From an uncultured Bacteroidota bacterium (GTDB taxonomy: Bacteria; Bacteroidota; Bacteroidia; Chitinophagales; Chitinophagaceae), in the NCBI GenBank assembly GCA_903926855.1, contig CAIYKV010000059.1, forward strand, positions 1 through 48,494: a stretch of 48,494 nt of DNA, in the 5' to 3' direction. Shown here in pieces: positions 41,377-48,445 of this stretch. The position numbers and the translations under genes were made by a program. Position 1 is the stretch's first letter. Every line of letters begins with the position of its first letter. Below the pieces are notes generated by a model. It searched no databases, was not told the origin of the DNA, and was given only the letters and a program-made list of their open reading frames with translations.

Positions 41377-42183
41377 TCACTTCTTAGGTGCATTCTCCAT
41401 TACCAACCCTTGTCCGGGTATCCATTTATCATACTCCATATAAAAGGCGATTGCTTTAGCAGATTCTGCACCTCTTATTTTTTCTACCAGGTGCAAAGCA
41501 CCGTCAATTCCGGCTGAAATTCCGGCCGTGGTAATGATATGACCGTTATCAACAAAACGGGTATTTGCCAGAACATTCGCTTTTGGACACTCCTGCCTAA
41601 GGCTTTCGATACTTTCATGAAAAGTAGTTACGGTAAGATGATCCAACAAACCTGATTTGCCAAGGATAAATGCACCTGTACATACGGAAAAATAATACTC
41701 CGGAGGAGATTGTTTTTGGATCCAGTTGATCACCTCCGGATCATTTGCTGCAATACCAGCATTGCCTCCAAAAAATGCAAGTATATCAGCTGATGGGGCA
41801 TCTGCGATACTATAATCAGGTGTAATTTTTAATATACCCTGAGATAGAATGGTGTTTTTGTTTTTTGAAACGATAGCTATATCAAAGCCTGCATATGAAA
41901 ATACTTCTAATGGTCCGGCAAAATCCAACACTTCCACGCCATCCTGTAAATAAAATAATACTTTCATTCTCTTTGCCATAATTCCTTTGCGATGTTCTTC
42001 GATATCCATTTTCATTAATTTCATTCCACAATTCGGGCAATTACCCGGGTTGATAAAAGAGGTTGTGTCACAACTGCTGCCACAGGGTGTACAATAATAG
42101 GCCTGCTTTCCCTGTGCGATAGCTGTTTGGACAATAAAAAATAAGGAAAAGCTTACGATTAGCAGAATCCTGATTGACTTCAT
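41377..42183 (-). CDS. Exported DJ-1/PfpI protein with Cys-rich metal-binding-like N-terminus
   Basis: From the ATG at 42183 the protein has 268 aa. A signal peptide (1-24, ending AIAQ) is followed by YCTPCGSSCDTTSF and CPNCGM, giving Cys31, 34, 38, 49 and 52 in a CxxC-x3-C-x10-CxxC pattern. This resembles the heavy-metal-binding/YHS-like domains found beside metal-transport genes. Residues about 72-268 form a DJ-1/PfpI (class I glutamine amidotransferase-like) domain with the nucleophile-elbow Cys in YFSVCTGAFILGKSGLL. It follows a GlxA-type AraC regulator by 68 nt, and both carry related DJ-1 domains. The activity is not known. Confidence 0.85.
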   Translation of the reverse strand: MKSIRILLIVSFSLFFIVQTAIAQGKQAYYCTPCGSSCDTTSFINPGNCPNCGMKLMKMDIEEHRKGIMAKRMKVLFYLQDGVEVLDFAGPLEVFSYAGFDIAIVSKNKNTILSQGILKITPDYSIADAPSADILAFFGGNAGIAANDPEVINWIQKQSPPEYYFSVCTGAFILGKSGLLDHLTVTTFHESIESLRQECPKANVLANTRFVDNGHIITTAGISAGIDGALHLVEKIRGAESAKAIAFYMEYDKWIPGQGLVMENAPKK

Positions 42184-42251
42184 TCTTTTTTTTGTAAAGC
42201 TAATAGGACAGTGAATAAAGCGCAAGGACATTCATGCGCAGTATCGGGACA

Positions 42252-45117: not shown

Positions 45118-47751
45118 CTATTTGATTTTGATCCTCCAGCCTAGATAAAACATTCTTCCACTAACCGGCCCCCATACCATGGAGGCATCGAAATAAGGAC
45201 TGAAGGGTTGGTCGGCAGATACAATAACTCCTTTCTGAAAAAAATTGGTGATGTTTTCTGCCCCAAAATAAATGTCCATGGGATGCTTATTACCAAAGGT
45301 CTTACTTACCTGTGCATTCATTAATACATAATCGGGAGAATAGGAAGGTAACTGATACTGAACCGGGTTATTGGCTGTATTGGGTATTCTTTTCTTCCCA
45401 TTATAGGTAATTGTATAATTAAACTTCCAGGCATTGGGTGTTGTATAATCAAAACTGATAAAAGCACGGTTTCCGGAAATAAATGGCCGTTCCAGTAATT
45501 GCCCGCTGTAATTGGTTTTTACATCAAAATATCGATATGCCATTTTCACGCTCAATTCCTTAACAGGCAAAAAGCTGAGTTCTGTTTGTAAACTGTTTGA
45601 ATAGGATTTCCCCTGTAAGTTATAGAACTTAACCAGTCTTGGGTTCTCCATATCTACCACCACCTGGTTGGTGAAATCATTCCTGAAAAAATCGACACTC
45701 AATTGTGCATCATTATCAAAAAGCCTGATTTTCTGATCTATGCTTACTCCTTTATTCCAGGCAATTTCAGGGTTTAAACCATATCCTTTACCCGGATTGC
45801 CGGGTATAATTTGTAACTGACGGGCACTGACCAATACACTTGTATTTTCTGCAAAAATATTCGCCGTTCTTTGTCCCCGCCCTCCGCTGGCACGGATCAC
45901 AGTTCCTTTAATGGGTTCATACCGTATATTTAAACGGGGGGTAATAAAAAATCCAAATAGATTATCATTGTCTGCTCTGATACCCGCTACTGCACTAAAT
46001 TTTGTAGAAGCCGTATAGGTATACTCAAAGAAAGCACCTGGCACGATTTCCTTTCTGTTATAATTAATTAGATTCAGTGTTTCATTATAATGATCATATT
46101 GAAAACTAAGCCCTGTTCTGAATTTGTGGTCTGTAGTATGAATAATGGATTGATAGATCAGATTTGTATAAAATCCCTCTTGTTTTGCCTGATAGTTGGT
46201 TAACCCGAAATACGAATTCTGGCTATGAGAGATAGCAGCTAACTGAAGCCCGATACTTTTATATTTTTGTTGTGGAAATACATATCCGATTTTAGCGAAG
46301 CCTTCGTAACGTTCTGTGTTGATACCCAAACCATAATGAAGGGTAGTTCCTTTATCAGTAGCCGCATCAAAAGCGGTTTGCCCACCCGTTCTCTGGTCAT
46401 TCAGTATTTTAAAACCCAATTGTACAAGCCATCCCATTGAATTGTCAAATTTATATCGATTCACCAGACTAAGTTGATTACCTGTAGGCAGGTCCCTGAA
46501 TCCATCCTTATTAAAATCTATTTGTTTATTGGTTAAAAAATCATCGTGTAATAATAATCCGGATGACCATTTTTTATTGATTCGGGTTGAGAGGTTTAGA
46601 TTCAGATCTGTTTTGCCAAAATCATTTACATACACATTACCCAGTAATTGCTCACTGTTTTCTGGTTTCTTTAATTCAACATTGATTTGACCCGCAATAC
46701 TTTCATAACCATTCGCTACTGAGCCAACTCCTTTAGTAAGCTGAATAGATTCTATCCAGGGCCCTGCAATTGAGTTTAAACCCAATGGTGTGGCAATACC
46801 ACGGGGGCCGGGCAGGTTCTCAACTGTAAGCTGTGTATAATTACCACTTAGTCCCAGTAACTGTATTTGTTTAGATCCTGTAACGGCATCATTATAGGAT
46901 ACATCAACCGAAGGGTTGGTTTCAAAGCTTTCACTAAGGTTACAGCAGGCAGCTTTTAATAATTCTTTTCCGGTCATTACTTCTGTTCTGATAGGACTAA
47001 TCGAAGAAATATAGCTTGCCCTTTGCCGGTTGGTTACAGTTACTTCTTTCAGTTGTTGGTTAGAAGCTAATACGATTTTTAATTCATTGATATCGGTTAC
47101 CGTAAGGGTATCCGACTGGTATCCGGTATAACTAATTACTAATCTGCTGAAGTTGCCCCTATGCGGGATCTGAAAAATACCCGAACTATCTGTAACCACT
47201 CCGGTATTACTTCCCAGCCAGTGAATAGTTGCGTTTGATAAGGGATTGAATTTACCCTTTGTGTCAGATTCAACCACCAGTCCTTTAATGATATGGGCTT
47301 GAGAAATTATTGGCGTAACACCTGTTTTTACTGATGCATCTGACACACTAAGCTGATTAACCGCGTTCACACTATCCGTCAAAATAGTAGTCTGCATGGT
47401 TTCCATTTCACGATAATGGCAGCAGGAGGGTAGCTGATTATACACAAGATCCCTGGCTTTTTTATTCTCCAGGTCATGTCCTACGGATACAATCCGATTT
47501 TGTATTTTTTCCACGGAAACCAGCAATGGATTGTAAACCAGGGATAATTGTTTGGTATCCACATCCCAGCTAACTGATTTTACCCCTCTGATTTTAGCGG
47601 CATCTTCAATACGTTGCTTGCATTGTTCACAGGCTCCGAACACTTTGAAGGAGATACTACTGTCTTTTTCCGGGCTCTTCAATTTTTGTCCCCAGACAGC
47701 AGAGCACTGAAAACTAAGCGTCATCGCTACTATATATATCAACGATTTCAT
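45118..47751 (-). CDS. TonB-dependent receptor with N-terminal HMA domain
   Basis: From the ATG at 47751 the protein has 877 aa: a signal peptide (about 1-22), and then a heavy-metal-associated (HMA) domain at about 33-96 with GACEQCKQRIED (Cys41, Cys44). A Cys-Cys-His segment (LPSCCHYREME, Cys110/111) follows. A carboxypeptidase-like domain (about 160-235), a TonB plug (about 260-370) and a 22-strand barrel to the C-terminal GWRIKIK complete it. The HMA pair and the CCH motif point to Cu+ or a similar soft metal. It sits downstream of a DUF3347 gene and a mini-ORF. The TTG at 47769 would add six residues before the signal peptide and is rejected. Confidence 0.9.
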   Translation of the reverse strand: MKSLIYIVAMTLSFQCSAVWGQKLKSPEKDSSISFKVFGACEQCKQRIEDAAKIRGVKSVSWDVDTKQLSLVYNPLLVSVEKIQNRIVSVGHDLENKKARDLVYNQLPSCCHYREMETMQTTILTDSVNAVNQLSVSDASVKTGVTPIISQAHIIKGLVVESDTKGKFNPLSNATIHWLGSNTGVVTDSSGIFQIPHRGNFSRLVISYTGYQSDTLTVTDINELKIVLASNQQLKEVTVTNRQRASYISSISPIRTEVMTGKELLKAACCNLSESFETNPSVDVSYNDAVTGSKQIQLLGLSGNYTQLTVENLPGPRGIATPLGLNSIAGPWIESIQLTKGVGSVANGYESIAGQINVELKKPENSEQLLGNVYVNDFGKTDLNLNLSTRINKKWSSGLLLHDDFLTNKQIDFNKDGFRDLPTGNQLSLVNRYKFDNSMGWLVQLGFKILNDQRTGGQTAFDAATDKGTTLHYGLGINTERYEGFAKIGYVFPQQKYKSIGLQLAAISHSQNSYFGLTNYQAKQEGFYTNLIYQSIIHTTDHKFRTGLSFQYDHYNETLNLINYNRKEIVPGAFFEYTYTASTKFSAVAGIRADNDNLFGFFITPRLNIRYEPIKGTVIRASGGRGQRTANIFAENTSVLVSARQLQIIPGNPGKGYGLNPEIAWNKGVSIDQKIRLFDNDAQLSVDFFRNDFTNQVVVDMENPRLVKFYNLQGKSYSNSLQTELSFLPVKELSVKMAYRYFDVKTNYSGQLLERPFISGNRAFISFDYTTPNAWKFNYTITYNGKKRIPNTANNPVQYQLPSYSPDYVLMNAQVSKTFGNKHPMDIYFGAENITNFFQKGVIVSADQPFSPYFDASMVWGPVSGRMFYLGWRIKIK

Positions 47752-47799
47752 CAATAAATTTTTTGACAATCAAATAATCCCTGGGTTTATCGGGCTAAT

Positions 47800-47815
47800 G
47801 CCTTTTATTAAAGGC
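47800..47815 (-). promoter_or_regulatory. Hairpin at the mini-ORF stop codons
   Basis: GCCTTT and AAAGGC (47800-47805 with 47810-47815) form a 6-bp stem with a 4-nt loop. On the minus strand it holds the tandem stop TAATAA of the 28-codon ORF. It lies about 50 nt before the receptor start. Confidence 0.55.
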
Positions 47816-47894
47816 AACAGTCTTTCTTACGGATAAAAATCGATTTGATTATCCGTAAAAAAAACTTCCCGGTACCAAGAATCATTTTTTTCAT
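47808..47894 (-). CDS. 28-aa mini-ORF ending in ...KKDCCL (possible metal-responsive leader peptide)
   Basis: The ORF runs from the ATG at 47894 to a TAA at 47808-47810, directly followed by a second in-frame TAA. The peptide begins MKKMILGTGKFFLRI, is basic and hydrophobic, and ends RKKDCCL with two adjacent cysteines. It is too short for any family call. It lies between the DUF3347 gene (63 nt downstream of its stop) and the receptor gene (56 nt before its ATG) and contains a perfect 10-bp inverted repeat. I infer a regulatory upstream ORF. Chance cannot be excluded, since a 28-codon ORF is short and no comparison was possible. Confidence 0.4.
   Translation of the reverse strand: MKKMILGTGKFFLRIIKSIFIRKKDCCL
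47827..47858 (-). promoter_or_regulatory. Perfect 10-bp inverted repeat inside the mini-ORF
   Basis: TTACGGATAA (47827-47836) and TTATCCGTAA (47849-47858) are perfect inverted repeats with a 12-nt spacer that itself contains the palindrome AAATCGATTT (47837-47846). No T tract follows the stem on either strand, so it is not a standard terminator. It may be an operator or an RNA hairpin. Confidence 0.6.
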
Positions 47895-47956
47895 GAAACT
47901 GAATTAGGTTTTACTGCAGGTTACTAGGTTAGCTATTACGTAAATGACAGACAGAC

Positions 47957-48445
47957 TCATTTTACAGTATCAGTCACTTTTCCACAGGTCAGCATCATTT
48001 TGCCATAATATGGATTTTTGATAGCAGGCTCATTGCTTAGCCAATACATTTTTTTCATGGGACAGTACTCCTGATAAACTGGCTGCTCAGAAATTTTTAC
48101 GGCTTTTAATAATGTGTATAATGAGAGAGAGAGGGTTGCAAAATGATCTCTTTGGGCTTCGATATTTGTATTCTCTGAAATATATTTCGCATCCGAATTT
48201 AGTTTTTCCTGTAAAGGAATAAAAACCTTACTATCGTTTTCTGAAAGCTGTTTTATATCCATGCTCTTCATGACTTGAACAAACTCAGTGGCTTTAAGAG
48301 AACTGGTTTTTGCATCACTGGCCACCAATGCGTTTTTGATATCATAATAAGCAGGTAATAGTTGTGTTAGAGAGGAACTCTTTTGCGCTTTTACAGAAAC
48401 GATGCTGATGCAAAAAAGAGACAGGGTGGTTATAATAAGTTTCAT
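47957..48445 (-). CDS. Secreted DUF3347 protein (copper-cluster type)
   Basis: The 162-aa protein has a signal peptide (1-20, ending VSVKA) and a DUF3347 domain. An all-helical N-terminal half (LTQLLPAYYDIKNALVASD ... FATLSLSLYTLLKAVKI) is followed by the signature YCPMKKMYWLSNEPAIKNPYYGKMMLTCG (about 126-154) with Cys/Met/His-type ligands. DUF3347 proteins and domains usually occur with copper or heavy-metal efflux (Cus-type) genes and are presumed periplasmic metal binders. It lies upstream of the HMA-TonB receptor gene on the same strand, 205 nt away, with the mini-ORF in between. Its promoter region runs to the window edge and shows no perfect TAnnTTTG. Confidence 0.88.
   Translation of the reverse strand: MKLIITTLSLFCISIVSVKAQKSSSLTQLLPAYYDIKNALVASDAKTSSLKATEFVQVMKSMDIKQLSENDSKVFIPLQEKLNSDAKYISENTNIEAQRDHFATLSLSLYTLLKAVKISEQPVYQEYCPMKKMYWLSNEPAIKNPYYGKMMLTCGKVTDTVK

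Follow-up and report, generated by a model that had tools for sequence, protein, structure and literature searches.

A short Cys-Cys micro-gene family in metal-handling gene clusters of Chitinophagaceae and its candidate role in soft-metal binding

Results

We examined a 48,494-nucleotide (nt) contig of an uncultured Bacteroidota bacterium of the family Chitinophagaceae (CAIYKV010000059.1; the whole stretch is hereafter called the window), in which a minus-strand gap of 205 nt between a DUF3347 gene and the gene for an HMA-domain TonB-dependent receptor contains a very short open reading frame (ORF). This micro-ORF starts with ATG, encodes a peptide with the C-terminus KKDCCL and ends in tandem TAA TAA stops (Table 1). 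The receptor consists of HMA, CarbopepD_reg_2, Plug and TonB barrel domains according to Pfam, and its ATG at 47751 lies 56 nt past the micro-gene stop, with a TTG at 47769 as an alternative start. The initial annotation had taken the element for a metal-responsive leader-peptide switch, and the features from which it set out are all present as described: the 28-codon ORF between the DUF3347 and receptor genes, its KKDCCL end, tandem stops and 56-nt spacing, the 10-bp inverted repeat within its codons and the 6-bp hairpin over its stops. No Pfam match to the micro-ORF was found at E ≤ 0.001, DUF2946 and HMA included, and NCBIfam and PADLOC searches of the micro-gene family gave no match. A repeat or mobile element was also considered and rejected, as the genome contains no further complete copy of the gap (the best match elsewhere covers 33 nt at E 0.002) and the gap has no plasmid match; a tblastn search of plasmids with a family member returned nine Enterobacter matches at E 8, which is chance level.

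Table 1. Features of the micro-gene locus and of the adjoining contig
Feature	Position	Strand	Evidence or remark
Micro-gene, 28 codons, MKKMILGTGKFFLRIIKSIFIRKKDCCL	47894-47808	-	ORF calling, family and codon evidence
Two Cys codons (26, 27), one further codon, then stop	47814-47819	-	CC in 96/96 counted members
DUF3347 gene, upstream, 62 nt ahead of micro-gene	48445-47957	-	PF11827, E 2.8e-18
HMA-domain TonB-dependent receptor, downstream	45118-47751	-	PF00403, PF13715, PF07715, PF00593
10-bp perfect inverted repeat inside ORF, 12-nt loop	TTACGGATAA 47827-47836 / TTATCCGTAA 47849-47858	-	
6-bp stop-codon hairpin, GCCTTT-AATA-AAAGGC	47800-47815	-	Two pairs broken in L043
Window end, 141 bp identical to start of contig C166 (1-141)	48354-48494	-	Sequence overlap
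HYC[MC]..PP..[FY]RI Cys protein	L250 (contig C166) 167-553, beyond window end 48494	-	

The nearest relative found, locus L043 (CAIWKU010000042.1; also G293:C42), has an identical gene order, with a receptor 92% and a DUF3347 protein 90% identical to those of the window, and its ORF (MKKIILVTGKFCLRIIKSIFIRKKDCCR) is in frame without an indel. Nine of the 84 coding bases differ between the two micro-genes (5 synonymous, 4 non-synonymous), which corresponds to a synonymous rate (dS) of 0.369, a non-synonymous rate (dN) of 0.062 and a dN/dS of ~0.17; dS and dN are 0.534 and 0.057 for DUF3347 (ratio ~0.11) and 0.392 and 0.036 for the receptor (ratio ~0.09). The flanks diverge ~2.5 times faster than the micro-ORF, with mismatches at 16 of 62 aligned bases upstream and 15 of 55 downstream, each with two gap columns in addition. 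Because the sites are few, the pair by itself provides modest evidence; the family makes the evidence strong. Over the last 20 codons, 35 disjoint family pairs gave a dN/dS of 0.13. The Cys codons of 96 members are mixed (TGC/TGT 55/41 and 48/48 at the two positions), the Lys columns use both AAA and AAG, the most frequent codons at the main Arg position include five different ones, and the stop codons vary (TAA 64, TAG 17, TGA 15). Because dN/dS is low while codons and stops are free to vary, selection acts on the peptide and not on the RNA. These substitution patterns indicate that the micro-ORF is a real protein-coding gene under protein-level selection, so the comparison of synonymous with non-synonymous changes suggested in the initial annotation came out in favour of the frame.

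A peptide search of 147 genomes of the same genus revealed related short ORFs in 40 of them at E ≤ 1; leaving aside the window and the genome of L043, the best matches had E 7e-6 to 1e-5. When a 14-row profile (A1) was searched against 394 Chitinophagaceae genomes, 95 matches in 79 genomes were obtained at E ≤ 1e-3 (~0.4 expected by chance; a few of the 95 are rows of the profile itself), and 115 genomes matched at E ≤ 0.05. Loci were retrieved for 88 of the 95 matches, the other seven not being included, and for the genus matches. From these 110 loci (L081-L190), five were set aside, namely L094, L099 and L127 (no motif), L163 (oxidase fusion) and L145 (out of frame after KK), and removal of seven duplicates with identical flanks left 98. 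The family peptides carry the C-terminal signature ...F.[RH]KK.CCx-stop; in 96 of the 98 loci they have 20-28 residues, with exactly one residue between the CC and the stop. The start of L133 is misassigned, L184 has two additional residues, and an ATG or GTG start is lacking in three of the 96 counted members. The window peptide fits this signature with FIRKKDCCL-stop, its F standing nine residues ahead of the stop. An alignment of 57 diverse members has C26 and C27 in every sequence and F20, K23 and K24 in at least 90%, bearing out the anticipated conservation of the Cys pair.

A 57-row profile matched 11 genomes of a 395-genome sample of the phylum at E ≤ 1e-3, nine of them from Chitinophagaceae and two from outside it; the genomes listed for this sample include 14 members of Chitinophagaceae. 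Outside that family, no match at this threshold in the sample keeps the CC pair (L197 and L198 lack it). Among 5.8 billion predicted proteins, a 42-residue frame query found two unnamed matches, one of 48 residues ending in KKDCCK and the other without CC. Most copies fall below the length reported by gene finders, and the family has probably been missed so far owing to this short length. No paper on the peptide family was among the matches listed from the open PubMed Central (PMC) literature, and the two papers there with the string KKDCC deal with a spider toxin and with membrane-penetrating peptides. At L145, L240 and L234 the copies are out of frame or altered, which suggests that the micro-gene has been lost in some lineages.

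The family is mostly located in metal-handling gene clusters. Recurrent heavy-metal genes were found in 80 of the 98 loci, a count that is partly by construction, versus none of 20 control stretches, each of 4.5 kb, drawn from 20 of these genomes at fixed offsets. This agrees with the metal context proposed for the window ORF, with its HMA-TonB receptor and DUF3347 gene. Neighbour clusters, whose Pfam names rest on one or two representatives each, comprised E1-E2 ATPases with HMBD, multicopper oxidases with HMBD, HMA-MauE, Haem_bd, small HMA and ArsR proteins. Upstream, HMA-MauE genes are found in 21 loci (16 overlap the micro-gene by 1 or 4 nt), Haem_bd genes in 19 (18 within 10 nt or overlapping), small HMA proteins in 7 and DUF3347 in 6. 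Downstream, a multicopper oxidase or P1B ATPase with HMBD is found in 24 loci, 20 of these on the same strand at 6-17 nt, and a HYC[MC].K Cys protein in 24, at 47-398 nt (L133 left out). Matches to the window's receptor, with HMA-only matches counted too, occurred in 11 of the 98 loci.

These tight arrangements bear on the possibility that the product is a small membrane subunit or modulator of the adjacent transporter or oxidase, its Cys pair serving in redox chemistry, disulfide formation or anchoring and not in metal binding. The short, hydrophobic and basic predicted helix and the close spacing to HMA-MauE and Haem_bd are consistent with this, as is locus L163 (G159:C2), where the micro-gene and the beginning of a multicopper oxidase form one in-frame fusion. 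However, there is no constant partner, the neighbours being unrelated and two copies having no same-strand neighbour at all. In addition, 30 HMA-MauE loci comprised 16 with an intact micro-gene directly behind, all at 67% identity to the query or more, two with an altered trace (L234, L240) and 12 without the micro-gene. We therefore regard a membrane subunit as unlikely. No peptide-HMA-MauE fusion was evident among the 120 matches listed of 7947 homologues, judged by length only (longest 261 residues).

We then considered position relative to downstream genes, using 57 receptor loci (L006-L034 and L043-L070, three of them with scarcely any sequence upstream or none, and some shared by both collections). 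Only L043 and L010 carry the micro-ORF, and in L010 it lies ~1 kb from the receptor, so the expected conservation of the ORF upstream of orthologous receptors did not hold. Across the 98 family loci, a same-strand ORF lies within 20 nt upstream in 50 and downstream in 25; 17 loci have a downstream gap of more than 200 nt, and in 13 the first ORF downstream is encoded on the opposite strand. Because neighbour calling accepted any ORF of at least 55 residues, several of these 13 calls are probably spurious, while seven of them have at least 148 residues. Same-strand downstream gaps span -13 to 849 nt (L133 left out); at L136 and L147, same-strand neighbours are absent both upstream and downstream. 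The proposal of a leader for the receptor is weakened both by the absence near orthologous receptors and by the copies without a downstream target.

A more general form of that proposal is a nascent-chain sensor like CruR or CutF, in which metal bound to the growing peptide would alter ribosome behaviour and hence expression of the next gene. It would fit the placement 56 nt ahead of the receptor, the 68 of 98 copies with a same-strand ORF at most 200 nt downstream, and a C-terminus conserved at a fixed distance from the stop, as in arrest peptides. The length of the ribosome exit tunnel would still enclose such C-terminal Cys residues, however, and because the CC stands one codon ahead of the stop in a peptide of 20-28 residues, the pair would not yet have left the ribosome at the end of synthesis. 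In CruR, the CXXC stands 45 residues from RAPP. The micro-peptide is also without a PP motif. Together with the variable gaps, the two copies without a same-strand neighbour and the scarcity at receptor loci, this makes such a sensor quite improbable.

The hairpins were compared in the same way. The window fold beats shuffled sequences strongly, with z -4.8 for 217 nt over the gap and z -6.6 from the ORF to the receptor ATG, and a repeat tool extends the inverted repeat to 18 nt at 89%. Over the same stretch L043 has z -2.1 and a partly different fold, and the outer part of the inverted repeat at 47827-47858 is broken. Of 53 window base pairs, 36 are unchanged in L043, 4 are kept by a one-sided change, 1 by a compensatory double change, and 12 are broken; among the 9 pairs nearest the receptor start, 4 are broken, so the conserved ribosome-binding-site stem-loop of CutF-like genes is not seen here. 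A family-wide fold signal is absent (n=96; mean z -0.31 within the ORF and -0.25 in the following 100 nt), and an Rfam search of the window region gave nothing above the gathering score. The window hairpin is private to the window and not conserved, and covariation in support of it was limited to the one double change. Between window positions 47746 and 47894, the block GGGATTATTTGATT ahead of the receptor is identical in L043; in each of the two predicted folds it is base-paired to the initial codons of the micro-ORF, with two pairs changed from wobble to Watson-Crick, an observation from two sequences only.

These data bear on an RNA switch or Cys-codon attenuator, in which hairpins in and after the ORF would gate the receptor and the position of the ribosome at the tandem Cys codons would be the signal. 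The very strong window fold and the tandem Cys codons adjoining tandem stops would suit it. Against this stand the weaker and partly different fold of L043 with its broken pairs, and the family mean z near zero. A Cys-codon attenuator is moreover expected to constrain the Cys codons and the RNA and to leave the remaining peptide free, whereas the peptide body beyond the Cys codons is under protein-level selection, as the low dN/dS of the disjoint pairs indicates. An RNA switch is accordingly very unlikely.

Beyond the window, the exact 141-bp overlap indicates that C166, another contig of this assembly, probably adjoins it in the genome. C166 encodes, 74 nt ahead of DUF3347, a protein with a signal-like start and the motifs HVHYCMNRL...CSTCGMEK...GCCKDE...APPGNSPPLYILNQVYRI, here called the HYCM protein. 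The same-strand gene order is HYCM protein, DUF3347, micro-gene and HMA/TonB receptor. TAnnTTTG is the Bacteroidota -7 promoter consensus; such a box lies just ahead of the GTG of the HYCM gene (window background ~0.5 per kb on each strand), and between DUF3347 and the receptor there is none, either in the window or in L043. Because the box heads the HYCM gene and the gap has none, transcription probably starts far upstream and covers a unit of four genes, with the micro-gene in third place. The HYCM protein and a tested relative gave no Pfam match, DUF2946 included. Its layout, with a signal-like start, Cys motifs and PP near the C-terminus, is like that of CutF/CruR-type sensors, and if the cluster has a CutF-like sensor, this protein would be a better candidate than the micro-peptide. 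The idea that the micro-ORF is the decayed N-terminus of a HYCM/HYCCGKL protein was ruled out by the intact upstream HYCM gene and by the micro-ORF's own family. By eye, HYC[MC] relatives were seen upstream of an HMA-TonB receptor in 22 of 29 loci, and they also follow 24 of the 98 micro-gene copies downstream. Elsewhere in the window, at 41377-42231 (minus strand), a CxxC..CPNCGM segment recognized by eye is joined to a DJ-1/PfpI domain (PF01965); a gene resembling this product, again by eye, lies upstream at receptor locus L018.

Discussion

Selection on the peptide, private hairpins, rarity at receptors and orphan copies together favour a free micro-protein over a leader. From the metal-responsive switch first proposed, the protein-level selection, the invariant CC and the metal loci have stood up, while the leader and hairpin switch for the receptor has not, given the ORF at only 2 of 57 receptor loci, the unconserved hairpins and the lack of a same-strand target at L136 and L147. 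Our preferred reading, held with moderate confidence, is that the product is a free peptide of 20-28 residues serving the adjacent metal proteins by binding Cu(I) or a comparable soft metal. Soft-metal binding would be the simplest role for a terminal Cys pair encoded next to Cu(I) exporters, oxidases and HMA proteins. The peptide is hydrophobic and Lys/Arg-rich and is predicted to form a single helix (AlphaFold2, single sequence, 31-residue frame, predicted local distance difference test score 84.6). The helix might lie against the cytoplasmic membrane from the inside, exposing the dithiol tail there for metal uptake; the peptide would then pass the metal on to partners such as HMA proteins, P1B ATPases or the assembly pathway of multicopper oxidases, or would shield them. 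A bolder version, in which these C-terminal Cys-Cys peptides are the smallest known class of copper-relay proteins, carrying Cu(I) at the membrane to an exporter, oxidase or HMA protein encoded next door, is put forward only tentatively and may well prove wrong.

Several points weigh against the free metal-binding peptide. Its helical hydrophobic moment is not above that of shuffles (median shuffle fraction 0.485, n=95), and a claim of an amphipathic helix, unsupported by this moment, was dropped. Translation, metal binding and membrane location of the peptide are all deduced from sequence. At the 68 loci with a close same-strand ORF downstream, a role in cis is possible. The metal query set was chosen from the neighbours themselves, which accounts for the partial construction of the 80 of 98. 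Furthermore, 18 of the 98 loci have no scored metal gene and three of these lie beside a carbonic anhydrase, so copper is not the sole context. HMA-MauE genes with less than 66% identity to the query are without the micro-gene (0 of 10), so this partner does not depend on it. Finally, L129, L132 and L112 fold strongly in the 100 nt past the stop (z -5.7, -5.4 and -4.0), folds that could be terminators or locus-specific control.

A precursor of a modified peptide (bufferin- or chryseobasin-like) or a small toxic peptide was considered as well. Copper-chelating ribosomally synthesized and post-translationally modified peptides, the bufferins, do exist, according to the accessible part of PMC12452194, and the hydrophobic and basic composition would suit either kind. 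However, the recurrent neighbour clusters identified are metal genes and not maturases, 16 of 20 genomes with the micro-gene, the window's included, have no MNIO (PF05114) match, and the remaining four have their MNIO on another contig or more than 400 kb away. We consider this the least probable explanation, scarcely to be expected.

A Cys-Cys gene of fewer than 30 residues is thus present in about one-fifth (79/394, E ≤ 1e-3) to one-third (115/394, E ≤ 0.05) of the sampled genomes and seems to have been overlooked, in a bacterial group whose copper handling has been little studied. If Cu(I) binding is true, the peptide would be a copper ligand of minimal size that can be synthesized and of which dozens of variants exist in nature. 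The locus also illustrates that a short Cys ORF ahead of a TonB receptor does not by itself indicate a CruR-type leader.

Among known systems, CruR of Bordetella (DUF2946, bp2923) is described in the accessible part of PMC9426467 as carrying CXXC (90-93) and RAPP (139-142, three residues before the end), 45 residues apart, and as the first gene of its operon, acting in cis; the CxxxCC motif given in the initial annotation was wrong. Given that 45-residue distance, the CXXC of CruR would lie outside the ribosome at the stall. A further trait of CruR is Rho termination past the ORF that depends on copper. As far as that part of the paper goes, what the two have in common is a short Cys-containing ORF close to a gene for a TonB-dependent transporter, in a locus related to copper. 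Unlike CruR, the window peptide has neither CXXC nor RAPP, its CC stands one residue ahead of the stop, the micro-ORF does not match the DUF2946 profile, and the micro-gene is the third of four same-strand genes and not the first, as known from gene order alone. The search rules for CutF-like proteins, in the accessible part of PMC9973294, are a signal peptide, CxxxC and a PP motif. CutF-like proteins resemble the family, on that partial account, as small Cys proteins encoded in metal loci in a copper context; they differ in that the window peptide and the aligned members have CC but no CxxxC or PP.

The C-terminus of MerA carries a Cys pair. Cys pairs are also described for the mercury transporters MerE and MerT in the accessible part of PMC5715351. 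The likeness to these three lies in a Cys pair as soft-metal ligand and is by analogy only; they are far larger proteins, and their relation to the micro-peptide is judged from Pfam and NCBIfam searches only. CopZ-type HMA chaperones are likewise metal-binding products of copper loci, but they have a folded HMA domain, to which the micro-peptide has no match. Bufferins too, in the accessible part of PMC12452194, are metal-binding products in copper loci, but they are MNIO-modified, and MNIO is absent from most genomes with the micro-gene. Small metal-locus proteins are thus known as a kind, of which the Cys-Cys micro-protein is a new and unusually small variant.

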